Source: Pyrinomonadaceae bacterium (lineage in GTDB: Bacteria > Acidobacteriota > Blastocatellia > Pyrinomonadales > Pyrinomonadaceae). From it: 64,000 nt of DNA. Positions 7,965 through 21,847 of the stretch are shown one piece after another (the first letter of the stretch is position 1; every line of letters begins with the position of its first letter). Under the pieces are notes generated by a model that did no database searches, had not been told where the DNA came from, and was given only the letters and a program-made list of their open reading frames with translations. The position numbers and the translations under genes were made by a program. The stretch covers positions 308,096 to 372,095 of the forward strand of contig JAHCHG010000002.1 in assembly GCA_026129865.1 (NCBI GenBank), read 5' to 3'.

Positions 7965-10900
7965 ATGATCGCGAATCTATTTAACAAGTACCGGCTGATT
8001 TACTCGATTTTCGTATTATCCGTTTTTGCCTTACTTTTCGTTGCGAACTGGTCAACCGTCGAAACCGCGCAGGAAGCGATCGACCAGCTCGAAAATTTTG
8101 ATATTCGAACCGATCACGAATCTAAAAAAGAACTCTCGGAGTTTCTTCAGCAAACCGACGCAGCCGCCGGGAAACGAATAAAAAGCGCGTCGGAGGAAGC
8201 CCAAAAATTGCTCGGCGACTCAGATCCGCAGATCAAGATCGAACGCGGCGCCGAACTTGGAATGCCGGAAGTGATCGAATCGCTCGGCTCGCTTTTATCG
8301 TCGCGAAGCGATCGATCGAAGGTTTCTCTGTTACGCCAATTCATAGTTCGAAATAACTCGCTATTTGGAATCGAAAAGGACGATGCAGATGCGCTTGAAG
8401 TCGCAGCCGATTACTCAAACCCGGAAAATAAGCTTTCGTTTGTCCATTTACAACAAAAAATTAACTCCGTCCCCGTGTTTCAAGGCGAGATAAAAGCAGG
8501 ATTTACCGTAAACGGAGAAATGATCCGCGTTATAAACAACCTGGCGCCGGGAACTCCTCAAGTTTCGCCGTCGGCAGAGTTCGGCAGTGCCGCCGATGCA
8601 GTTGTAAACGCATCGAAGTTTGCCGGTCTATCCGTTCAACCCGCATCGTTAAAACAAAGATCCGGAACCGAATTTGTTTTTGAGTTCGACGATACCGAAG
8701 CCCGCAGCCCGATCACCGCTGAGAAATTCTACTTTCCGGTTCGAGCGGGTGAGATGCGACCTGCCTGGCGTATTTTATATTGGACGAGAGATGCCGCGTA
8801 TTATGTGCTCTCGGATGCAGCAACCGGAAAACTTCTTTGGAGAAAGAACATTTCTGAAAACCAAACATTGCCTGCGACCTACAACGTTTACGGCAATACA
8901 TCGGCTTTTATAAAATCGGCGGACTCGCCCGCGCCTTGTTCGCCGGGCTGCAGCGACCCTAACAGCTGCCCGCAGCCGCCCGCGATCTCGCGTACCGATT
9001 TTACGTTGATCGGAAACGAAGCGCCGTATGAATTTAACGATCTGGGATGGATTCCGGATAATGGTTTGCCGGTTCGAACGCCTGCCGATCCGAACATTAC
9101 CGACGGCAACAATTGCGAAGCAGGCATTGACCGCGACGGAACGAACGGAGTCGATCCGATGGGACATGCGGTTGGCAATCCGTTTCGAGTTTTTTCTTAC
9201 ACATATAATCCTGCGCCCGGCAATCCGCCGCCTCCCGATGATCCGCTCCCGCCTAATCCGCAGCCTTATCCGCCGACTCAGTTTCAGCAGGGCGTTATAG
9301 CCAACGGCTTTCATCTTGTGAACCGTTGGCACGACGAACTCTACCGGCTGGGTTTTACCGAACAGGCTGGCAATTTTCAGCATTTCAACTTTGGGCGCGG
9401 CGGTGCCGAAGGCGACCGGATCTCATTCGAAATGCAGGATGGAAGCGGTACGAACGGTGCAAATTTTTCAACGCCGGCGGACGGCGGACGTCCGCGGATG
9501 CAGATGTATATCTGGACACCCGGCACACCGGCTCGCGATGGTGCGCTGGATGCGACCATCGTTTTACATGAGATAACCCACGGTTTGACGAGCCGTCTGC
9601 ACGGAAATTCAACAGGATTAAATACGAACATGGCTCGCGGAATGAGCGAAGGCTGGTCCGATTTTTACGCAAATGCCCTGCTTTCCGAACCGGGCGATGC
9701 GCCGTGCGGGACATACGCCGTAGGCAGCTATATTGCGTTTGAACTCGTTCCCGCGAATCATTATTACGGAATCCGCCGTTATCCTACAACGCGAATCGGC
9801 TGCACCGGACCAAACGGGCTGCCGCATAATCCGCTGACGTTCGGTCACCTTAATACGGGAAACTGCAGCAATATTCCTTCGGCGTTTCCGCGCGGTCCGC
9901 TCGGGTCTACTATCTGCGATCAGATTCACAATGCAGGTGAAATTTGGTCTCAGGCACTCTGGGAAGTTCGCGGATTTTTGATCGAACAGCACGGTGGGGC
10001 GGAAGGAAACCGGCGTGCGCTGCAATATATTACGGACGGAATGAAGTTTTCGCCGATCAACCCGACGATGCTGCAGGCGCGCGATGCGATAATCGCAGCG
10101 GCTTCGGCTTCGATTCCGGCTGACGTTCAATTTATCTGGCGCGGATTTGCGGCGCGTGGAATGGGTTTTTCCGCGTCGATAATATCGACCTCGCCCGCAA
10201 ACGTTGTCGAGGCTTTCGATACGCCGAATGTCGCGATCGGCACCGGGTTCAGCGTTAGCGATGCGCCGGGAAACGGTGACGGATATTTCGAACCGGGCGA
10301 AAGGATCGCCGTTACAATTCCCGTAACAAATCGAACCGGCTCGACAATTACCGGTGTTGCCGTCCGGCTTACAGGCGGTCCTTCGGCTTTTTACGGCGAC
10401 ATTCCGGCAGGTCAAACCATCATAAGGACAATCGAACATACCATTCCGGTCAATGCCCCGTGTCCCGGAAATTTCGCTTTAGAATTTACGATCACGGGAA
10501 GCGCCGGAACCAGAATTGAAACGCGTTCGATCTTTTTGGGAATTCCGGTCGGCGGACCTCCGGCGGTTTTTTCCAGCACAGGCACGATCGATCTGCCCGG
10601 CGGACAGCCCAATACATCGACCGGACCGGCGTCGCCGTATCCTTCGACGATCAATGTTTCCGGATTGTCCGGAAATAAGCGGATCAAGCTTGAATTGACA
10701 TCTATCTCGCATAGTTTCCCGAGCGATTTGGATTTTCTGCTCGTTTCACCGACCGGTGCGAAATATGTGTTCCTTTCCGATTCCGGCGGCAATTCGGCAA
10801 TTTCAAATTTGACTTTTACTCTTTCCGACGGAGCATCGGTGGTTCCGCCGACAACCGGCTGGGCTGCAGGCGACTTCCTCCCATATAATCTCGGCGCCGG

Positions 10901-11951
10901 TGACCCGTTCGTTTCGCCCGCACCGTCCGCTCCTTATTCAGAAGCAGCACCCGCCGGGTCGGCAACATTTATGTCCGCCTTTGGTCAAAGTGGATCGGAA
11001 ATGAACGGTGCGTGGCGTCTTTTCGCGGTTGATGATGCAAATACCGATTCCGGATCGATGGCAGGATGGAAGCTGACGTTCGAATCATCCGAGTACACCT
11101 GTATTCTATGCCGAGCGTGCCCGGGAACAGGAACGCGTGCGGATTTTGACGGTGATGGAAAAGCGGATCTTTCAGTTTATCGACCGTCCGACGGAATCTG
11201 GTACGTCAATGGTTCAACCGCCGGATTTTCCGCTGTCCGCTGGGGAATCGGTTCCGATCAGCCTTTGAGCGGCGATTTTGACGGGGACGGCAAAACGGAT
11301 TACGCAGTCTTTCGCCCGTCAAGCGATCCGAACGAATCCGATTTTTATATTTTGAACAGCAACGGGTTTACGTTTACCGGATTTGCTTGGGGAACCACGG
11401 GCGACGTTCCCGCTGTGGCGGATTACGATGGCGACGGTCGCGCGGACGTCAGCGTTTTTCGACCGTCAAATCATACGTTTTACGTTGCGCGGACGACCGA
11501 AGGATTTCTGTCTTTTGCGAACATCGGCAGCGGAACGCCGCAGCCCGGCGATTACGACGGTGACGGCAAGGCGGATTTCGCCACTTACAGCATTAACGGA
11601 TGGTTTCTTGCGCCTTCGAATCTTAATTATTCCTCAGTCAACTTTATTCGTTGGGGAGCGCCCGGCGACGTTCCCATGGTCGAAGATTATGACGGAGACG
11701 GGCGCGACGATTACGCGGTTTATCGCCCATCGAACGGAACCTGGTACATCCGGGGTTCGGTCGGTACAAATATCATCGTTCAGTTCGGCATCGATTCGGA
11801 CATTGCCGCGGCAGCCGATTTTGACGGCGACGGCAAAGCTGACATCGCAGTTTACCGCGGCGGAACATGGTATTTGCTGGGGTCAAGCGCGGGCGTCAGG
11901 ATCGAACAGTTTGGTTTAACCGGCGACAAGCCGATTCCGGCTCAGCGATAG
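7965..11951 (+). CDS. Secreted M36 (fungalysin-type) metalloprotease with P-domain and FG-GAP-like repeats
   Basis: A 1328-residue exported protein with several modules. An N-terminal hydrophobic signal (about 8-30) is followed by an FTP/PepSY-like propeptide (about 50-300). The M36 catalytic domain (about 300-750) carries the zinc motif HEITH (H535, E536, H539) and the third-ligand segment MSEGWSDF (E562). A linker is followed by a proprotein-convertase P-domain (about 860-1045, with the LTSISHSFPSDLDFLLVSP strand set). Five or six FG-GAP/VCBS-like repeats (about 1058-1328) follow, each with a DxDGDGKAD calcium loop and VYRPS...WY. By family knowledge M36 enzymes are secreted, self-processed endopeptidases. 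The repeats may bind calcium or a surface. Confidence 0.93.
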   Translation: MIANLFNKYRLIYSIFVLSVFALLFVANWSTVETAQEAIDQLENFDIRTDHESKKELSEFLQQTDAAAGKRIKSASEEAQKLLGDSDPQIKIERGAELGMPEVIESLGSLLSSRSDRSKVSLLRQFIVRNNSLFGIEKDDADALEVAADYSNPENKLSFVHLQQKINSVPVFQGEIKAGFTVNGEMIRVINNLAPGTPQVSPSAEFGSAADAVVNASKFAGLSVQPASLKQRSGTEFVFEFDDTEARSPITAEKFYFPVRAGEMRPAWRILYWTRDAAYYVLSDAATGKLLWRKNISENQTLPATYNVYGNTSAFIKSADSPAPCSPGCSDPNSCPQPPAISRTDFTLIGNEAPYEFNDLGWIPDNGLPVRTPADPNITDGNNCEAGIDRDGTNGVDPMGHAVGNPFRVFSYTYNPAPGNPPPPDDPLPPNPQPYPPTQFQQGVIANGFHLVNRWHDELYRLGFTEQAGNFQHFNFGRGGAEGDRISFEMQDGSGTNGANFSTPADGGRPRMQMYIWTPGTPARDGALDATIVLHEITHGLTSRLHGNSTGLNTNMARGMSEGWSDFYANALLSEPGDAPCGTYAVGSYIAFELVPANHYYGIRRYPTTRIGCTGPNGLPHNPLTFGHLNTGNCSNIPSAFPRGPLGSTICDQIHNAGEIWSQALWEVRGFLIEQHGGAEGNRRALQYITDGMKFSPINPTMLQARDAIIAAASASIPADVQFIWRGFAARGMGFSASIISTSPANVVEAFDTPNVAIGTGFSVSDAPGNGDGYFEPGERIAVTIPVTNRTGSTITGVAVRLTGGPSAFYGDIPAGQTIIRTIEHTIPVNAPCPGNFALEFTITGSAGTRIETRSIFLGIPVGGPPAVFSSTGTIDLPGGQPNTSTGPASPYPSTINVSGLSGNKRIKLELTSISHSFPSDLDFLLVSPTGAKYVFLSDSGGNSAISNLTFTLSDGASVVPPTTGWAAGDFLPYNLGAGDPFVSPAPSAPYSEAAPAGSATFMSAFGQSGSEMNGAWRLFAVDDANTDSGSMAGWKLTFESSEYTCILCRACPGTGTRADFDGDGKADLSVYRPSDGIWYVNGSTAGFSAVRWGIGSDQPLSGDFDGDGKTDYAVFRPSSDPNESDFYILNSNGFTFTGFAWGTTGDVPAVADYDGDGRADVSVFRPSNHTFYVARTTEGFLSFANIGSGTPQPGDYDGDGKADFATYSINGWFLAPSNLNYSSVNFIRWGAPGDVPMVEDYDGDGRDDYAVYRPSNGTWYIRGSVGTNIIVQFGIDSDIAAAADFDGDGKADIAVYRGGTWYLLGSSAGVRIEQFGLTGDKPIPAQR

Positions 11952-11995: not shown

Positions 11996-13258
11996 CTAAT
12001 CTAAACTGACAAGGGTCATCGACGAAGTGCCGTTCAACCCGTTGAGAACATTTTGAAGCTGCGGTATCAGGTCTTGTTTCAGTAAATATTCTTTGCCAAG
12101 CATTCGCGTAAATCCGAGGCGTTTCTTTTTGCCCGTTAGTTCGGACAAGAGAGCTCCACAAAATGACGTGACAAGCTCCGGCGCGAACTGGTTGCCGGAA
12201 TTTCTTTGCAGGTCTTCGATCATTTCATGTGCAGGACGGCGCCGTTTGTAAGGGCGGTCGGTCGTCATTGCATCGACCGAATCTGCCAAATTGACGATCT
12301 TTGCAATATACGGAATCTCCCGATCCGCTAAACCGTCGGGATAACCGCGTCCGTCGAGCCTTTCGTGATGATACTTTGCCGCCAAAGGTACGTCTGCATA
12401 AGGATGATGGATCGGCAGCAATATTTCGTAACCTACTACCGGATGCTTGTTCAAATGAACCGATTCTTTAGCGTTTATTCGCATCGGAGAATTAATGATA
12501 TTGCGCTCAACGGTTAATTTTCCTATGTCATGGAGATATCCCGCGACCGCTGCGCCTTCTATTTCCTCATTACCCCAACCGAGCTGCTTTGCTATTATTT
12601 CAGTATATTTTCCAACGCGGACCGAATGCCCCTCAGTGTATTTGTCCTTGTAATCTATTGCGGCGGCAAAGGCTTTCACGGTATTCGTATATGTGAATCG
12701 CAAGTCGTCGTAAAGCCGACGATTCTCCGTTGCGCGGCGTTCGATCTCGACCATCATATTTCGCTGTGCGATTCCGACGCCGATATGCCGCGCCATAGCG
12801 CAAATGACCTCGCGGTCGTATGACGAATACGGCTCGCCGTTCGCCTTTTCACCAAGTGTGATCAGCCCGACGAGTTCATCTTGAATCACCAGCGGAACAA
12901 ACATCTCTAGCGGTTTGTTTCGACCGGCGGCGACGAATTCGCTCACGACCGGATCGCCGGATGCCTGCGAAACGTCTGCGGCAGCAAGTCCGGCGGACAA
13001 AAATCGATGTTCATCCTGCTGTGAAAGCGAAAAACTCGGCGGAAAATCTTCCCCGAGTCCTTTAACTGCAATAAAATTTAGTTCATGACGAAAGCGCGAA
13101 TATCGCGCAACTCCGCCGCGCATGATAGCCAGCGAGCCCAAAAGCAGATGCAGCGATGTCCTGATCATCTCCTGGAAACTTTTCCGGTTAGTGATCTCCT
13201 GACCGAGTTCGGCAAGCGCACCGAAAGTGTAAATTAGCTTATTTTCGTTTTCCGCCAT
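11996..13258 (-). CDS. GAF-HD-GYP domain protein, probable c-di-GMP phosphodiesterase
   Basis: A 420-residue cytoplasmic protein. A GAF sensor domain (about residues 20-165) precedes an HD-GYP domain (about 180-360) with intact motifs: HDIGK, HPVVGYEIL, HHERLDGRGYPDGL and NLADSVDAMTTDRPY. Family knowledge predicts c-di-GMP hydrolysis. A roughly 60-residue tail after the HD-GYP domain is of unknown role. It is the last gene of a minus-strand cluster with a STAS protein, an NTPase-RsbW-like kinase and a GGDEF cyclase; the gap to the STAS gene is 80 bases. Confidence 0.92.
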   Translation of the reverse strand: MAENENKLIYTFGALAELGQEITNRKSFQEMIRTSLHLLLGSLAIMRGGVARYSRFRHELNFIAVKGLGEDFPPSFSLSQQDEHRFLSAGLAAADVSQASGDPVVSEFVAAGRNKPLEMFVPLVIQDELVGLITLGEKANGEPYSSYDREVICAMARHIGVGIAQRNMMVEIERRATENRRLYDDLRFTYTNTVKAFAAAIDYKDKYTEGHSVRVGKYTEIIAKQLGWGNEEIEGAAVAGYLHDIGKLTVERNIINSPMRINAKESVHLNKHPVVGYEILLPIHHPYADVPLAAKYHHERLDGRGYPDGLADREIPYIAKIVNLADSVDAMTTDRPYKRRRPAHEMIEDLQRNSGNQFAPELVTSFCGALLSELTGKKKRLGFTRMLGKEYLLKQDLIPQLQNVLNGLNGTSSMTLVSLD

Positions 13259-13338
13259 ATCTTCTCAGTTCGTCGGGGACCGCAGTAAAAAAGCGATCTA
13301 AGTTGTGGAAGACGGAAACATAGGGTTGATAAATCTCT

Positions 13339-13647
13339 CTACCGAAGCCGCAGCGCCACGCGTGTCGAAAGCCCGAGCATTTCGAAAAGTTCGATCGTAT
13401 GTTCGCTGACATCAGAAAAAACAACATCTGCTTCAAAATCTGACGCCGCGTCGATCACTCCGAGAAGAATGGAAATGCCGATACTGTTTATGATCTCGGT
13501 GTTTTTAAAATTAACCTCAAGCTGCCGGCAGCCCGATCTTAAAAACTCTTTGCATTCGCGCTCGATCTTTTCTCCGCTAAGCTTATTTAGGTAGTCCGAG
13601 GCAAAAACGGTCACCGATTTTCCCTCAGTCAAAACAGAACTATTCAT
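13339..13647 (-). CDS. STAS domain protein (anti-sigma factor antagonist-like)
   Basis: A 102-residue single-domain STAS protein. The central strand-helix NTEIINSIGISILLGVIDAA corresponds to the region of SpoIIAA/RsbV that carries the phosphoacceptor serine (NSIG), which is kept here. Its gene lies directly downstream of one encoding a C-terminal RsbW-like ATPase domain, the usual partner of STAS antagonists. A partner-switching role is therefore likely, but no PP2C phosphatase or sigma factor gene is next to it. Confidence 0.8.
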   Translation of the reverse strand: MNSSVLTEGKSVTVFASDYLNKLSGEKIERECKEFLRSGCRQLEVNFKNTEIINSIGISILLGVIDAASDFEADVVFSDVSEHTIELFEMLGLSTRVALRLR

Positions 13648-13777
13648 TTATTCAGATATTCGATAGGTATGATTTAGCGATTTCGAGGTTAGTAGAATGC
13701 CGCCGATTTGTCAAATAGTTTTTTTCGCCCTCATAATCTCTCCGCTGCGTTCCGCGTTGCTCGCGATTGTCGCGGTG

Positions 13778-16021
13778 TTACCCCGCTGCAGCTTCTTTCG
13801 CCTTCGGATTCAGATATTTGGTCATTCGAATTCTGGTGCCGTCGTTGACATGTTCGAACGTTACATCGTCCATCAAGGATCTAAGAAGTTTCAAGCCCCA
13901 GCCGCGGCGGTCGGCGTCCGGTTGGACATCTGCAGCTTTTCGGTCGCCGATTCGAACCCCCCGATTCGAAATTGTGATGGTTATCTTGTCATCCTCAACG
14001 GCAAATTTTTGGTAGATCTTTTTGTCGGGACTCAAACTATGTTCGACCGCATTGATACAGGCTTCGACGAGCGCTGTCTTGATCTGATTGATCGCCCGCG
14101 GGTCAAATTCATGCCGCCGTGCGATCTCTTCGACCGTGTGAGCCGCGATCAACTCGGTATCTTCACCCATCGGGACGACCATTTCGTATTCGTTCCGATT
14201 TTGCCTCTCGCCGATGGCGTCTTCGGCTTTTAGGAAAATTTTCAAAAGGTCGATCTGTTTTCGGCTCGATCCGAAGGCGTTTCTTTCCTTTAAAACTTCG
14301 AGCGCTTCCGGCGAAAAGCCTTCCGGCGCGATCAGCCAGATCTTAAATTTTTGAAAATTGCTGACCAATGCGACCATTTCCAACCGGTCGCACCAAAACT
14401 CCGCAACTTCGCGCGGCGCTTCGAGCTTTGATTCTATCTCAGCCGCAAGCCAGATCACCTCGTTTTCATCGGTGTAATTCGCCGTTTCAAAACCAAGAGC
14501 AACGGCGGAATTTTGGCTGTCGATAAATTGTCCAATCGGCTCGTAAAATTCGGTCGTCGGCGCCGTGTAAACGATCTGCGGCAGCGTCATTCGTTCGTCA
14601 GAATCATCAACCTTTTCCAGAATTTCAATATTTTCGACCCCTTTATGCCGTTCTCTAAAGATCGAATAATCGATCAGATCCGGGGGAACCGATTGGCAAT
14701 TGAAAATTCCCAAAAGCGCACGAAGATCGACCGCCGAACTAAGTCTGTAGAAATTCGCCATCGTGTTCGGCGCCCGTTTGAGAAATTTTTTCAGCGCTTC
14801 GACGATCACCAAAACACGCGGTTTCGCCTGAATTTCCAATGCGAACCGTTTCGAAACATAATCCGGCAGCGGCTCGCCTTCCTCCGAAACTTCGACAAGA
14901 TTTCCGCTCATTCGAACGATCTCGTAATTGTTTAAATGCCGCATAGCACGTTCGAATTCATATTCGCGCAGCGCAAGATGCGATCTCCAGGTTTCAAGAG
15001 GACTTTTCCGCCGTTCGCCTGTCAAAACCTCGAACAATAAGCCGATAATTCGTTTTTGAACTTCGTGATCCGCATTGATCTCATCGAAAACCCGGTCAAA
15101 ATAAGCGCCGATCCTGCCTTCGAAGATCTCATCGGCGTAAACCTGTTCAACGTAATGAAAATTCTCTAGTTTGCAGTTCTTTTCTTTGGCTGCCTGGAAA
15201 AGCGATTTGATGAAAAACGGATTTCCGCGAAATTTTCTTGCGATAAGATCGCGGCTTTGGTCGCTGATCTTCACTTCATATTTCGCCGATAAGTTTTCCG
15301 CCAAAATTCCCGCGTCATTGAACTCGAGCGGTTCGAGCGATAAGATCTCGGTTTCGTAAAGCTGCGTATTTCCGGTTTGAACCGAATTCAGCATAAACCG
15401 CCGGCGACCCGAAAAAACGTACTGAATTCCGGCGCGACCGAAGATCTCCTTTAATTCCTCGATCAGATCGATGTCGCCCGTAAGAAAATCGGCTTCGTGC
15501 AGATCGTCGATGATCGCATAAACGGAAACTCCGTGCGCCGCGGCATACACAGGCGCGCTCAAACAATTTTTAATATAGAGCCGATCGTCATTTTGAACAT
15601 TTTCGGCTCGACAACCGGCGATCAGGCGGTCGATCCAAAATCCGTCGCTGGCAAGCGAAAGCTGCGCGAGTTCATCAATGTCGGCAGCGGATTCCAGTAA
15701 ATTTGAATCGCGCTTTCGAAACGCGATCACCTGCTGCAAAAATGTCTGCAAAAATCTTGCGGCAGCATTTTTCGCATTGACATCGATTTTGTTCAGCGAA
15801 AAATAGAACGGAACGGTCTCGGTTTGCTTAAAGAAATAATGATCGAATACCTGCCGCAGAAGTTCCGAACCTCCGATGGCTGGCTTTGCCAAAAGAAGCA
15901 ATCCGTGGGACCTGTTTTTTCCTTTTCCGTGACGCAGAAGACGTTCGAGTTCGACAGTTCTGTCGATGAAGTCTTCTTCTAAGACGGATGATAGGGTTTT
16001 TCTAAGATCAAGATTACTCAT
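13778..16021 (-). CDS. AAA/STAND-like NTPase fused to an RsbW-type HATPase domain
   Basis: A 747-residue protein. Residues about 15-330 resemble the AAA_16/Orc1-like NTPases of signalling proteins: FIDRTVELERLL, then a P-loop position reading AKPAIGGS (45-52), and Walker B YAIIDDLHEAD (D172, D173). The P-loop lysine is replaced by glycine. A helical middle (about 330-600) has no clear match. Residues about 610-740 form an anti-sigma-kinase-like HATPase_c domain with N-box EACINAVEH (E653, N657) and a late GWGLKLLRSLMDDV segment. The start at 16021 fits the conserved N-terminus; the frame opens 7 codons earlier. Its partner is probably the STAS protein encoded 130 bases downstream. Confidence 0.82.
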   Translation of the reverse strand: MSNLDLRKTLSSVLEEDFIDRTVELERLLRHGKGKNRSHGLLLLAKPAIGGSELLRQVFDHYFFKQTETVPFYFSLNKIDVNAKNAAARFLQTFLQQVIAFRKRDSNLLESAADIDELAQLSLASDGFWIDRLIAGCRAENVQNDDRLYIKNCLSAPVYAAAHGVSVYAIIDDLHEADFLTGDIDLIEELKEIFGRAGIQYVFSGRRRFMLNSVQTGNTQLYETEILSLEPLEFNDAGILAENLSAKYEVKISDQSRDLIARKFRGNPFFIKSLFQAAKEKNCKLENFHYVEQVYADEIFEGRIGAYFDRVFDEINADHEVQKRIIGLLFEVLTGERRKSPLETWRSHLALREYEFERAMRHLNNYEIVRMSGNLVEVSEEGEPLPDYVSKRFALEIQAKPRVLVIVEALKKFLKRAPNTMANFYRLSSAVDLRALLGIFNCQSVPPDLIDYSIFRERHKGVENIEILEKVDDSDERMTLPQIVYTAPTTEFYEPIGQFIDSQNSAVALGFETANYTDENEVIWLAAEIESKLEAPREVAEFWCDRLEMVALVSNFQKFKIWLIAPEGFSPEALEVLKERNAFGSSRKQIDLLKIFLKAEDAIGERQNRNEYEMVVPMGEDTELIAAHTVEEIARRHEFDPRAINQIKTALVEACINAVEHSLSPDKKIYQKFAVEDDKITITISNRGVRIGDRKAADVQPDADRRGWGLKLLRSLMDDVTFEHVNDGTRIRMTKYLNPKAKEAAAG

Positions 16022-16114
16022 TAATTTAAACGAATATCCCAAGGGCAGAGCGCACAGTGAACGGGTGCGAAATCTATTTTTTTATTAGATTAAGAGCGAG
16101 CCTTTCGGGGTTCT

Positions 16115-18334
16115 TTAATTGTATTTCTTTTCTAAATTCCTTTCCTGCGAGATTTCTTCGATGTTCAGGTTTTCATAAACCTGCACATTATTCTTGCCGC
16201 GGCGTTTCGCTTCATAGAGTGCGGTATCAGCCGCCCAGATCAGGTCCTGCGCCGAGTTAACACTCGACGAACAGCTGACTATCCCGATGCTGACCGTTAC
16301 CTGACGATGCGGAAATCGCGTCAGCGCGACCTTTTCCCGGATCCTTTCGCCGATCGCTTCTGCTTCGAACGAATTCGTCTGCGGAAGCAAGATCGAAAAT
16401 TCCTCGCCGCCGTATCGTGCGGCAACATCCGCACCGCGCAGGATCTCTTTTAGACATTGCCCGACCTTTCGCAGCGCGGTGTCGCCGTCGAGATGCGAAA
16501 AATTATCGTTATAGCTTTTGAAATTATCGACGTCGATCATCATAAAGCTCATAGGGTAACCGTGGCGGTTCGATCGCTGCAGCTCTTCGGTCAGCCGTTC
16601 CTCCAGATAACGCCGGTTGAGCAAGCCTGTCAGCGCATCCGTAACAGAAAGATGTTCATATTCGCCGGCTTTTTGCTTCAAAAGCGCGCGGTCAATGAGA
16701 ACCGCAAGATGCGGGACAATTACATCAAGCAGCTCAAGGTCGACCTGGTCGAATATTTCTCCGTCGGTCTTGTCCGTAACATTCAGCACGCCGATCTCGC
16801 GTCCGGCGATCCTAATCGGATAGCTGATGAAAGAACTCGATTTGTATTTCCAGTCCGGCGGAGCGGCATTTACGTCGTTCTGACGCATATCGCGGCGAAT
16901 GTACGGTTTTCCCTTTTTCAAAACATTCTTGGAGATCCGCTCGCCGATGTTCTTTCGCTCGGTCTTTAGGAAATCGGCGCGAACTCCGGTTGCCGCCTTG
17001 ACCGAGAACGTGTCCGATTTTTCGTCGAAGATCAGCAGCGAACTGCGTTCCGACTTCAAAAGTTCGGAAAGTATCTGCGCAAGACTTGTCCAGAAATCTT
17101 CCGAATCGATATGTTTTACGCTTTCATTAAATACCTGGACTGCGCGTTCGAGCCATTCGCGATGCGAAAGCTGTTCGCGCAAATGAAGAATTTCAATATC
17201 TGAGGCAATACGCTGGCAAAACCTGGAAATATGCCGCTTTGTATTTTCATCGCGAATATTGTCACCGACGACCAGTGCGTTCGTAATGGAACTGCCCACG
17301 CCGATCGGATAAAGCTGGATCAGGTTCGGAACCGGGTCTTCTTCCTTTCCGACGCGCACTTTTAATTCAAGCGGAAGTCCTTTCTTTGAAACTTCGATCA
17401 AACGCTTGTCGTCCGCGGCAAATTTAAACCGAAGCGGCGTTTCTTTTAATTTTCCACCCGCAAGTATCGTTTCGAGCTGATTCTCGTAACGCTCAAGCCA
17501 CGCAAGCGATGAAATAGAATAACGGCGCTGCAGAAACTGCAGGATCGCGGTGCATGCTTCCTTGTAGGAAAGATCAAGCAGCGATCCGAATAACGATCGC
17601 CAAACCACCGATTCTTCATCGTTAAACTTATCGTCCGCCGCCTGATCGTTCTTTTCTGCCGAGCGATGAAATTCTTCGATCAGCGCCGTCGCAGCGCGAC
17701 CGCGGGAATGTTTTGTATCTGTTTGAGATTCAAGCCTTTCGCCCGAACGTTCGGACTCGCTTTGCGGCTTTGCTGCCGGCGAAGTTTCGACCGGTTCGGC
17801 AACCGAAGCTTTTAACGAACGTTTCTTTTCGAGAAAGCGAAACAGCATTTCGAGTTCGCGTTCCGACAGATTTTCAAGCTTTCCGGCAACGACCTCAAGA
17901 CTTGCCTGCGAACCGCTCAAAATTACATTTTCAAAAAATTTGGTTCTGGGAAAATCTTTCCAATCGCCGTCGAGAGCGCGCTGAGTTGCTTCGCGGTAAT
18001 CCTGCGATTTCAAAAACGTCCGACCGACGATCGCAACAACGCTCTTGTCCTGTTTTTTGATCGGGACCGCAAGACAGTTCAATCCGGCATAACATTTATA
18101 GTTGACCGTTCGCTGCGCTTCGGTCGCCATTGAATAAGCCTTTCCGCAATATTGGGCACAGCTTGATGCGAATTCTTTTGAATTGTAAAGAACCTGGCAA
18201 ATCGAATTGTCATTCGACTGTAAAAGAACCGATGAATTTTCATCAATTGTTACGACCGAAACTCCGCTTTGATTGGCTAAATTATTTTGCATCTCACTCC
18301 AATTCGCGTCTTTTGTCTGATTGTTGGTCGTCAT
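16115..18334 (-). CDS. PocR-GAF-GGDEF diguanylate cyclase
   Basis: A 739-residue protein. Residues about 20-135 match a PocR-type ligand domain with its conserved cysteines (SSCAQYCGKAY, YKCYAGLNCLAVPI). A charged linker and an unassigned region follow to about 370, then a GAF domain (about 375-530) and a GGDEF domain (about 545-720). The active-site motif is GGEEF (642-646), and an RxxD inhibitory site (R633-D636) sits five residues before it. Active, product-inhibited c-di-GMP synthesis is therefore expected. It is the first gene of the four-gene signalling cluster and lies 93 bases upstream of the NTPase-kinase gene. The PocR cysteines suggest redox, metal or small-ligand sensing. Confidence 0.9.
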   Translation of the reverse strand: MTTNNQTKDANWSEMQNNLANQSGVSVVTIDENSSVLLQSNDNSICQVLYNSKEFASSCAQYCGKAYSMATEAQRTVNYKCYAGLNCLAVPIKKQDKSVVAIVGRTFLKSQDYREATQRALDGDWKDFPRTKFFENVILSGSQASLEVVAGKLENLSERELEMLFRFLEKKRSLKASVAEPVETSPAAKPQSESERSGERLESQTDTKHSRGRAATALIEEFHRSAEKNDQAADDKFNDEESVVWRSLFGSLLDLSYKEACTAILQFLQRRYSISSLAWLERYENQLETILAGGKLKETPLRFKFAADDKRLIEVSKKGLPLELKVRVGKEEDPVPNLIQLYPIGVGSSITNALVVGDNIRDENTKRHISRFCQRIASDIEILHLREQLSHREWLERAVQVFNESVKHIDSEDFWTSLAQILSELLKSERSSLLIFDEKSDTFSVKAATGVRADFLKTERKNIGERISKNVLKKGKPYIRRDMRQNDVNAAPPDWKYKSSSFISYPIRIAGREIGVLNVTDKTDGEIFDQVDLELLDVIVPHLAVLIDRALLKQKAGEYEHLSVTDALTGLLNRRYLEERLTEELQRSNRHGYPMSFMMIDVDNFKSYNDNFSHLDGDTALRKVGQCLKEILRGADVAARYGGEEFSILLPQTNSFEAEAIGERIREKVALTRFPHRQVTVSIGIVSCSSSVNSAQDLIWAADTALYEAKRRGKNNVQVYENLNIEEISQERNLEKKYN

Positions 18335-18584: not shown

Positions 18585-19163
18585 ATGAATAAGACATTAG
18601 AAGGAAAACGGGTAGCAGTATTAGCGACAAACGGTTTCGAACAAAGCGAGCTTTTCGAACCCAAAAAGGCGCTTGAAGATGCCGGAGCGGTAGTAAAGAT
18701 CGTATCGCTCGAGAGCGGCGAGATAAAAGGCTGGGACAAAAAAGACTGGGGCAAAAGCGTCCAGGTCGACCTGACGCTCGATGAGGCGAACGCAGACGAC
18801 TTTAACGCACTTCATTTGCCGGGCGGCGTGATGAATCCGGATCTATTAAGAACCGAAGAAAAAGTTCTTAAGTTTGTTAAGTCGTTCTTTGATAAAGGTA
18901 AGCCGGTTGCCGCGATCTGCCATGCGCCGTGGATCCTGATCAATGCCGAGGTGGTTAAAGGTCGCGAAATGACCTCTTATCATACGGTTAGAAAAGATCT
19001 TGAAAATGCCGGAGCAAAATGGGTCGATAAAGAAGTTGTTGTTGACAGCGGCTTGGTTACGAGCAGAGATCCGGACGATTTGCCGGCGTTCAACAAAAAG
19101 ATGATCGAAGAGATCGGTGAAGGCAGACACGACGGGCAAAAAGCCGCTGCTCGTTCCATTTAG
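18585..19163 (+). CDS. DJ-1/PfpI family protein (YhbO-like)
   Basis: A 192-residue cytoplasmic protein of the PfpI/YhbO subgroup. The nucleophile elbow AICHAPW places the cysteine at C112 with H113 beside it, and E19 (NGFEQSEL) is the conserved acidic partner. By family knowledge these are stress-linked hydrolases or deglycases; the exact activity is debated. A 250-base gene-free region precedes it. The next gene on the strand encodes a DUF2383 bundle, and both are followed by one terminator, suggesting a two-gene stress unit. Confidence 0.88.
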   Translation: MNKTLEGKRVAVLATNGFEQSELFEPKKALEDAGAVVKIVSLESGEIKGWDKKDWGKSVQVDLTLDEANADDFNALHLPGGVMNPDLLRTEEKVLKFVKSFFDKGKPVAAICHAPWILINAEVVKGREMTSYHTVRKDLENAGAKWVDKEVVVDSGLVTSRDPDDLPAFNKKMIEEIGEGRHDGQKAAARSI

Positions 19164-19273: not shown

Positions 19274-19729
19274 ATGGATAACGACACAATTATTTCAACA
19301 CTTAACAATTTGATCGAAACCTGTAAAGACGGGCAAAACGGTTATAAAGAAGCTGCAGAGGGCGTTGAACGCGCCGATCTGAAGACATTTTTTTATGAAT
19401 GTTCGCAGCAGCGTTCGCAGTTCGCAGGCGAGCTTCAATCGCTTGTTCGCGAACATGGCGGCGAACCGTCCGATTCGGGAAGTGTCAGCGGATCGATCCA
19501 CCAGGGCTGGATCAATCTGAAAGCGGCAGTTACCGGTCAGGATGAAAAAGCGATCTTAAACGAATGCGAGCGCGGCGAAGATTCTGCCGTGAACGCCTAT
19601 AAGAACGCTCTGGAAGAAGATCTTCCGGCAAACGTTCGCTCGGTTGTGCAGAATCAGGCAAACACCGTTAAGGCGACTCATGACAAGATCAAGAGTCTTC
19701 GCGACCTCGCACGAGCGGCGGCGAACTAG
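19274..19729 (+). CDS. PA2169-family four-helix-bundle protein (DUF2383)
   Basis: A 151-residue all-helical protein. It starts with the usual STLNNLIETCKDGQNGYKEAAE helix and continues with FFYECSQQRSQFAGELQ, GSVSGSIHQGWINLKAAVTG and CERGEDSAVNAYKNAL, the recurring signature of this ferritin-like bundle family. The function is not established. AAGGGAGACG upstream of the ATG is a good ribosome-binding site. It sits 110 bases after the PfpI-like gene and 25 bases before a strong terminator. Confidence 0.85.
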   Translation: MDNDTIISTLNNLIETCKDGQNGYKEAAEGVERADLKTFFYECSQQRSQFAGELQSLVREHGGEPSDSGSVSGSIHQGWINLKAAVTGQDEKAILNECERGEDSAVNAYKNALEEDLPANVRSVVQNQANTVKATHDKIKSLRDLARAAAN

Positions 19730-19754: not shown

Positions 19755-19789
19755 AAAAAACGGAGGCGTTCGATGCCTCCGTTTTTTTT
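19755..19789. terminator. Strong bidirectional intrinsic terminator
   Basis: A 13-base stem (AAAAAACGGAGGC at 19755-19767 with its complement from 19775) has a 7-base loop and ends in a T-run at 19782-19789. The A-run on the other side makes it work on both strands. It separates the plus-strand DUF2383 gene from the convergent oppF gene and overlaps the last two bases of oppF. Confidence 0.9.
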
Positions 19790-20825
19790 ATACATTCTCT
19801 TCAATATAAGGATTTTCGGGACTTATTCGAATACAAGCTGCGTAATGCTTCGGCTTGATCTCGACAAGTTCGGGTTCAATCCTTTTACAATCTTCTATCG
19901 CAAACGGGCAGCGCGTGTGGAATCGGCATCCCGTCGGCGGATTTATCGGCGATGGAACATCACCGGTCAAAATTATTCTTTCGCGTTTCGATTCGATCTC
20001 AGGATCGGGAACCGGCACCGCAGAAATCAGAGCTTTCGTGTAGGGCATCAACGGTTCAGCGTAAATATCCTTCGCACCGGCAAGTTCGACGATCTTACCG
20101 AGGTACATAACCGCAACGCGGTCGGCGACGTGGCGAATCGCGCGAAGATCATGCGAAATGAATAGATACGTCAAATTTTTCTGCGTCTGAAGATCTTCCA
20201 TCAGGTTCATTATCTGAGCCTGGATCGAAACATCTAACGCCGAGATCGGTTCATCGGCAACAATAAATTCCGGATCGACCGCCAACGCCCGCGCGATTCC
20301 GATTCGCTGGCGCTGACCTCCCGAAAATTCGTGCGGGTATCTCTTAATAAAACGACGGCTCATACCGACCGTTTCCATCAGATCCTGAACTTTCCTCTCG
20401 ACCGAACCGCCGTCGGATAGCCCGAAAGTACGAATAGGTTCGCCGATAATATTCCCCACCGTCATTCGGGGATTGAGACTGGCGTAAGGATCCTGAAAGA
20501 TCATTTGCAGATGCTTGCGCTGTTCGCGCATCTCTTTTTCGCTCGAATTGGCGAGATCCTTGCCATTATAAAAGACCTTTCCGCTGGTTATCGGAGTCAA
20601 TCGGAGCAGCGCTTTTCCAAGCGTCGACTTTCCGCAGCCGGACTCGCCGACAAGCCCGAGGGTTTCGCCCGCCTTGATGTCAAAAGTAACGCCGTCAACG
20701 GCTTTTACGACCCGCGGAACGGGACTTCCGCCTGTCAGCTTATCCAAAATTCCACCGCCGCCGAGGTTAAAATGGACCTTCAGATTTTCTAAGGAGATCA
20801 AACTTTTTCCGTTAGTTTCTGTCAT
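19788..20825 (-). CDS. oppF: Oligopeptide ABC transporter ATP-binding protein OppF
   Basis: A 345-residue ATPase. Visible motifs are Walker A GESGCGKS, signature FSGGQRQR, Walker [13 protein letters not shown] and the switch ISHDL. The C-terminal oligopeptide-transporter extension carries [17 protein letters not shown] cysteines, known in OppD/F-type proteins to bind an iron-sulfur cluster. It is the last gene of the opp operon. Its ATG overlaps the oppD stop by one base, indicating coupling. The substrate is probably peptides. Confidence 0.93.
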
Positions 20826-21847
20826 TAAGATATTGTGCTCCCTTGGTTAATGGACTCGGCATAAACTTCCTTCGCGAAATGGCAGAGCGAATGATGATTT
20901 TCATTGATCTGAACAAACGGCGGAAACTCGCGTTCGCATATGTCTTCCGCGCGTTCGCAGCGTTCGGCAAACGGGCATCCCGGCGGAAGATGTGCCACAT
21001 CGGGCGGCAATCCGGGAATTTGATAAAGCGGTTTTCCCTCTTCGTGTGCCGGATCGGGCACGCTCTTAAGCAATCCTTTTGTGTAAGGATTTGCCGGCGT
21101 CGCAAACAGCTCCTTCGTCGGCGCCGATTCAAAAACCTTTCCGGCGTACATTACGATTATGTTTTCGGTCATGCCGGCAACAACGCCGAGGTCGTGCGTT
21201 ATCAAAATTACGCTTGTGCCGAGATCTTTTTTGAGATCTTTGATCAATTCAAGGATCTGCGCCTGAATCGTAACGTCCAGCGCTGTCGTCGGTTCGTCGG
21301 CGATCAGCAATTCAGGCTGACACGAAAGTGCCATCGCGATCATTACTCTCTGACGCATGCCGCCGGAAAATTCGTGCGGATAATTATCGATCCTATTTTC
21401 CGGAGCAGGAATACCTACCGTCCGAAGCATTTCGACCGCGTGTTCGTACGCTTGTTGTTTCGAATGTCCCAGATGCAGCTGCGTAACTTCCATTAGCTGC
21501 GTCGAGATCTTCAAGTAAGGGTTAAGCGACGTCATCGGATCCTGAAAGATCATAGCCATCCGCTTTCCGCGGATCTTTCTGACTTCTTCGATCGAAAGTT
21601 TGCGAACGTCTACGCCGTCAAAAATAATATCGCCGTTGACGATCTTTCCCGGAGGTTCGGGAATCAGCCGCATTACCGAAAGATTCGTCACCGATTTTCC
21701 GCTGCCCGATTCGCCGACTATGCCGAGCGTTTCGCCGCGCTTAAGTTCAAATGTAATTCCGTCAACCGCCTTGACCACTCCGTCTTCGGTTTGAAAATAA
21801 GTTTTAAGGTCGTTGACCGATAGGATCGTTCCGTTTTTTTCGTTCAT
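20825..21847 (-). CDS. oppD: Oligopeptide ABC transporter ATP-binding protein OppD
   Basis: A 340-residue ATPase. It has Walker A GESGSGKS, signature FSGGMRQR, Walker [13 protein letters not shown] and switch ITHDLGV. The C-terminal cysteine-rich segment [14 protein letters not shown] and a further C (SLCHFA) fit the family iron-sulfur site. It powers the OppB/OppC permease as a heterodimer with OppF. Its start overlaps the stop of the upstream Uma2 gene by 4 bases. Confidence 0.93.

Follow-up and report, generated by a model that had tools for sequence, protein, structure and literature searches.

A four-gene locus on the minus strand of a Pyrinomonadaceae genome brings together the synthesis and the breakdown of c-di-GMP with an RsbW-like protein and a STAS protein, in an order that recurs in this bacterial family and in a second one. 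We propose, with about an even chance of being right, that this locus is a kinase/STAS/PP2C partner switch whose phosphatase has been swapped for a phosphodiesterase and which a diguanylate cyclase has joined, with the STAS protein shuttling between the kinase-like protein and the c-di-GMP enzymes. The whole module could be regarded as a vertically inherited c-di-GMP control unit of the Blastocatellia, derived from a partner switch of the kinase/STAS/PP2C type.

The four genes and their products

The window, which is the whole stretch of 64,000 nucleotides analysed here, carries the following open reading frames, all on the minus strand: a diguanylate cyclase (DGC, positions 16115-18334, 739 amino acids), a protein named KIN (13778-16021, 747 amino acids counted from the ATG, with a possible alternative TTG start 21 bases upstream), a STAS protein (13339-13647, 102 amino acids) and a GAF-HD-GYP phosphodiesterase (PDE, 11996-13258, 420 amino acids). 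The gaps between them are 93, 130 and 80 bases, in agreement with an earlier note on this DNA that had described four minus-strand genes separated by 80-130 bases. Inspection of the open reading frames of the four-gene locus revealed no sigma factor, as the same note had stated. A promoter and terminator scan of the locus gave counts at the level of shuffled sequences and was uninformative, and PADLOC found no defence match in it except for weak Cas3-HD matches coming from the HD domain.

The cyclase matches the PocR (1.8e-13), GAF_2 (1.1e-13) and GGDEF (1.6e-47) domains, and its AlphaFold model (pLDDT 82.8) reveals a second, cryptic GAF that follows PocR and precedes the annotated one, so that the architecture reads PocR-cryptic GAF-GAF-GGDEF. 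Five conserved Cys occur in the PocR domain. The GGEEF active site and the RxxD I-site are invariant in 41/41 members, and the GGDEF domain superposes on solved cyclases with Z scores up to 27.9 (3ign). It does not resemble a SiaD-type cyclase with a SiaC-binding stalk: the NCBIfam SiaD model scores 154 bits, below its cut-off of 290, and covers the GGDEF part only. This PocR-GAF-GAF-GGDEF protein would make c-di-GMP, and the GAF-HD-GYP protein would degrade it. The latter shows a clear HD_5 match (8.7e-29) together with a weak GAF, and its HD, HHE and GYP residues are invariant in 17 aligned members.

The STAS protein has a Pfam match (1.2e-4) slightly under the Pfam cut-off and a PDB profile match to SpoIIAA (4.5e-6). 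Its motif is NSIG, with Ser55 aligned to the phosphorylated Ser58 of SpoIIAA; the structure 1tid, which is the S58A form of SpoIIAA, places Ala at the exact column of Ser55. An early suspicion that the phosphosite was missing was ruled out by this alignment. The Asn-Ser pair is invariant in all 25 sequences aligned at first, and the phosphosite Ser in both families that keep the full module. All of 22 STAS members match STAS models (STAS, STAS_2), and none of them has DUF1987/SiaC among the matches listed.

KIN as a STAND-RsbW fusion

The predicted model of KIN (pLDDT 85.8) is made of three parts: a STAND/AAA+-like module (residues about 7-400) with a degenerate Walker A, a middle alpha/beta domain (about 480-600) and an RsbW-like HATPase (610-736). 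The predicted N-terminal structure has a STAND fold (Z 23.2 with 2qen and 22.2 with 2fna), and its comparison with NLR and CED-4 chains gives Z scores of 14-19. Pfam finds no match in residues 440-605, and the idea that the middle domain has a nuclease-like fold carrying a (D/E)xK motif was set aside, the acidic position being Asn in the second family. The C-terminal part matches HATPase_c_2 (1.8e-20) and superposes on RsbW (6m36) with a Z of 19.2 and an rmsd of 1.5 over 105 residues.

Residue conservation was followed in an alignment of 49 KIN members, comprising 41 from Pyrinomonadaceae, 7 from the second family and 1 from a third family (genome G498). The adenine-binding Asp of GHKL proteins (DxGxG) is replaced by Asn686 in KIN, and by Asn or Ser in 49/49 members. 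The N-box residues Glu653 and Asn657 and the G2-box Gly are intact in 48/49 (48/48 across the two full-module families), the sole exception being G498, where the Asn and the G2 glycines are missing. The Walker A Lys is absent from all Pyrinomonadaceae members (0/41) and present in those of the second, sister family (7/7) and of the third (1/1). The domain labels of the earlier note are right for the cyclase, to which we add the second GAF, and for the STAS and PDE proteins; calling KIN an NTPase is misleading because of the lost Walker A Lys, and calling it a kinase is uncertain because of the lost Asp. We take the Asp positions of Hsp90 and KIN to be equivalent, from what is known of the GHKL family and from alignments to SpoIIAB and RsbW. 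A D-to-N change at the equivalent position of Hsp90 abolishes nucleotide binding (PMC10148809). With the Asp lost, KIN may have no kinase activity.

Conservation of the module

KIN orthologues, either full-length or fragmented, were found in 99 of 119 Pyrinomonadaceae genomes (a hundredth match, in G025, covers the HATPase part only), and STAS orthologues in 92, most of the genomes compared being MAGs. Both proteins occur in 91 genomes, KIN only in 8, STAS only in 1 and neither in 19, and this co-occurrence (Fisher p 8e-15, a value inflated by shared ancestry and incomplete assemblies) indicates that the arrangement is not due to chance. The STAS gene lies no more than 500 bases downstream of KIN in 51 genomes and within 10 kb in 7 more, and in the rest it is found on a different contig or on the strand opposite to KIN, in some cases through contig breaks. 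The cultured relative Pyrinomonas methylaliphatogenes K22 is among the carriers of the locus (L053/L116).

A gene-neighbourhood search, whose counts refer to inspected loci and not to every genome, showed DGC and KIN as adjacent genes in 40/40 family loci read with their flanks, many of them with a coding overlap (often of 4 bases) or a zero gap. STAS follows KIN within 200 bases in 23 of these 40 loci, with PDE next in 22 of the 23, and the uninterrupted DGC-KIN-STAS-PDE order is present in 22/40. When STAS is away from KIN, it still adjoins PDE (17/17 loci), and split loci keep both the DGC-KIN and the STAS-PDE pairs. In the second family, the full order was found in 6/7 genomes; the remaining locus (L235) is truncated by a contig end within the cyclase gene, which leaves its PocR part unseen. 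The order is therefore not confined to a single genome, and its recurrence across many genera of Pyrinomonadaceae and in another family supports the conserved c-di-GMP/partner-switch module suggested by the earlier note.

Parts of the module can persist without the full set, as indicated by the genomes with only KIN or only STAS and by G498, where only DGC-KIN is present, the HATPase is degenerate and no STAS match was found. In G053 (L210) the order is DGC-STAS-PDE without KIN, with 116 bases from DGC to STAS. A KIN homologue of the third family (L232, 6383-8866, minus strand) has an intact Walker A and a HATPase without the N-box Asn and the G2 glycines. Four loci with no neighbouring STAS (L067, L069, L070 and L079) show a second GGDEF protein after KIN, which is an FHA-GGDEF protein in L067, the only one of the four checked with Pfam. 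Irregular reading frames in L075 and L076 were attributed to assembly errors.

Proposed origin from a kinase/STAS/PP2C switch

The nearest stand-alone kinases, found elsewhere in the phylum, give a different picture. The 23 examples read were chosen by their similarity score to KIN and therefore describe its nearest relatives and not all RsbW proteins; each of them keeps the adenine-binding Asp (23/23), precedes a STAS gene with the NSIG motif (23/23) and has a PP2C protein within a few kb (23/23). In the STAS proteins of these loci (L190-L192, L212-L231), the residue preceding the phosphorylatable Ser is Asn, where Asp is usual. In contrast, no PP2C match was obtained in the 40 family loci, in 3 loci of the second family or in the split STAS loci scanned, and the only PP2C matches of that scan came from the stand-alone comparison loci L190-192. 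A local phosphatase is thus missing from the inspected family loci, as the earlier note had said for this one. The source genome has two SpoIIE-type PP2C genes outside the locus, and a PP2C could possibly act on the module in trans.

A profile of the GAF region of PDE was searched through 14 genomes. In five of them (G163, G174, G201, G124 and G139), a GAF-PP2C protein encoded beside a kinase/STAS pair is the top match of the whole genome, with 90-105 bits versus at most 48 for the next best; the remaining stand-alone genomes searched gave weaker matches, which lie away from the kinase/STAS locus. On these sequence comparisons, a PP2C output would have been exchanged for an HD-GYP one on a shared GAF domain, and the direction from PP2C to HD-GYP is suggested by the Asp being general in GHKL proteins and by the PP2C form being widely distributed. 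In a FastTree phylogeny, the 44 fused kinases included form one clade (support 0.79), and the loss of the Asp counts therefore as one event and not as 49. Since PDE stands in for the PP2C phosphatase on the same GAF, there is no need for an output encoded elsewhere, which the earlier note had considered; the cyclase and the phosphodiesterase are the likely outputs.

This shared domain also weighs against the idea of an ordinary c-di-GMP locus lying beside an RsbW/STAS pair with which it has only the promoter in common, the pair being unrelated to it and acting on a sigma factor encoded elsewhere. The similarity of KIN to RsbW/SpoIIAB and a locus without a sigma factor would fit such an idea, but the DGC-KIN and STAS-PDE pairs survive rearrangements and the GAF domain of PDE is that of a PP2C encoded in kinase/STAS loci, and we consider the idea very improbable.

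How KIN would handle STAS admits several answers. The loss of the Asp and the missing local phosphatase argue against an ordinary use of ATP by KIN, while the intact N-box and the STAS Ser speak for a continuing role of a nucleotide and of this residue. A conventional switch, where KIN would phosphorylate Ser55 with ATP, a PP2C from elsewhere would dephosphorylate it and the unphosphorylated STAS would activate the cyclase or the phosphodiesterase as in SiaABCD, agrees with the invariance of Ser55, Glu653/Asn657 and the G2-box Gly in two families and with the two PP2C genes of the genome. However, the replaced Asp, read in the light of Hsp90, and the contrast between the phosphatase-free family loci and the Asp-containing relatives with their nearby PP2C make this scheme unlikely. 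Sequestration without phosphorylation, in which KIN would be a pseudokinase whose binding of STAS follows the states of two elements, its STAND-like module and the PocR/GAF-sensing cyclase, agrees with the combined loss of the Asp, the local phosphatase and, within the family, the Walker A Lys (41/41), and with the distant genome whose fully degenerate HATPase still adjoins the cyclase; the strict conservation of the N-box Glu/Asn, the G2-box Gly and the STAS Ser is hard to explain without nucleotide binding, and we see this scheme as rather doubtful. More tentatively than our main proposal, we suggest that a phosphorylation switch was turned into a c-di-GMP device, with the phosphatase replaced by a phosphodiesterase on the same GAF, and with KIN working either without ATP, through sequestration, or with another nucleotide, perhaps a guanine one shared with the cyclase.

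In the proposed switch with an exchanged enzyme, STAS would be bound by KIN through the RsbW-like domain, and the STAND-like N-terminal module, as a partner of the cyclase, would set whether STAS is held or released. Free STAS would then contact the GAF-HD-GYP phosphodiesterase, perhaps also the cyclase, and alter its activity in the way that SiaC and HsbA alter that of cyclases. From the gene pairs and domains described above we infer the role of STAS as a shuttling ligand, that of both c-di-GMP enzymes as outputs and the direction of the switch; the contact between STAS and the cyclase is a guess, because the cyclase has no recognisable SiaD stalk.

Comparison with known systems

Control of cyclases by STAS-type proteins is established for HsbA-HsbD and SiaC-SiaD, and these pairs, together with BgrV-BgrR, are known cyclase-coupled partner switches (PMC5085249, PMC8457831, PMC7278518). 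The SiaABCD system of Pseudomonas aeruginosa, with the SiaB kinase, the DUF1987 protein SiaC, the PP2C SiaA and the cyclase SiaD (PMC7278518, PMC8457831), also combines a small STAS-like protein, a kinase and a cyclase in one operon, where the partner protein controls the cyclase. Unlike it, the present locus has no detected homologue of SiaC, SiaB or PP2C, its cyclase resembles SiaD in the GGDEF domain only, and it adds an HD-GYP phosphodiesterase and a STAND-RsbW fusion. A STAS antagonist acts on a diguanylate cyclase in the HptB-HsbR-HsbA-HsbD pathway of P. aeruginosa and in BgrSTUWV-BgrR of Sinorhizobium meliloti (PMC5085249, PMC8457831), whereas the present locus lacks a phosphatase or response regulator and persistently pairs a phosphodiesterase with STAS.

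With RsbV/RsbW and SpoIIAA/SpoIIAB, the locus shares the RsbW match of KIN and a STAS protein that aligns with SpoIIAA through the phosphosite, but differs in the lack of a sigma factor and of the adenine Asp, in the N-terminal STAND fusion and in the motif NSIG instead of DSSG. The acidobacterial stand-alone loci contain the nearest relatives found of the KIN HATPase and of STAS, and some of their PP2Cs share the PDE GAF; their kinase, however, is unfused and has the Asp, a phosphatase takes the place of the phosphodiesterase and there is no PocR cyclase partner. STAS/HATPase signalling also acts on the stressosome-linked cyclase of Moorella thermoacetica, as cited in PMC4976288, and no RsbR/RsbS/RsbT set was seen at the present locus.

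A literature search, for which subscription papers were mostly beyond reach, found no paper on the four-gene architecture in Acidobacteria and no precedent for a STAS protein paired with an HD-GYP enzyme. The module offers a traceable case where Ser phosphorylation and dephosphorylation have apparently been exchanged for the synthesis and breakdown of a second messenger inside a conserved operon, an exchange of signalling chemistry, with a sister lineage that retains the Walker A Lys. It is also a testable system for the control of c-di-GMP enzymes by STAS proteins in Acidobacteriota.

Neighbouring genes

Convergent with PDE, a plus-strand gene (7965-11951) encodes an M36 fungalysin-like metallopeptidase with a P-domain and FG-GAP repeats, and a related M36 gene is also found beyond PDE in L041, L044, L051 and L208. 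Upstream of the cyclase there are two plus-strand genes, one of the DJ-1/PfpI family (18585-19163) and one for a DUF2383 protein (19274-19729); the latter recurs at the same place in relatives, and the PfpI gene likewise in fewer loci. They are followed by two minus-strand ABC ATPase genes (19788-21847) resembling oligopeptide transporter subunits, both of which hold their position upstream of the module in most of the relatives inspected.
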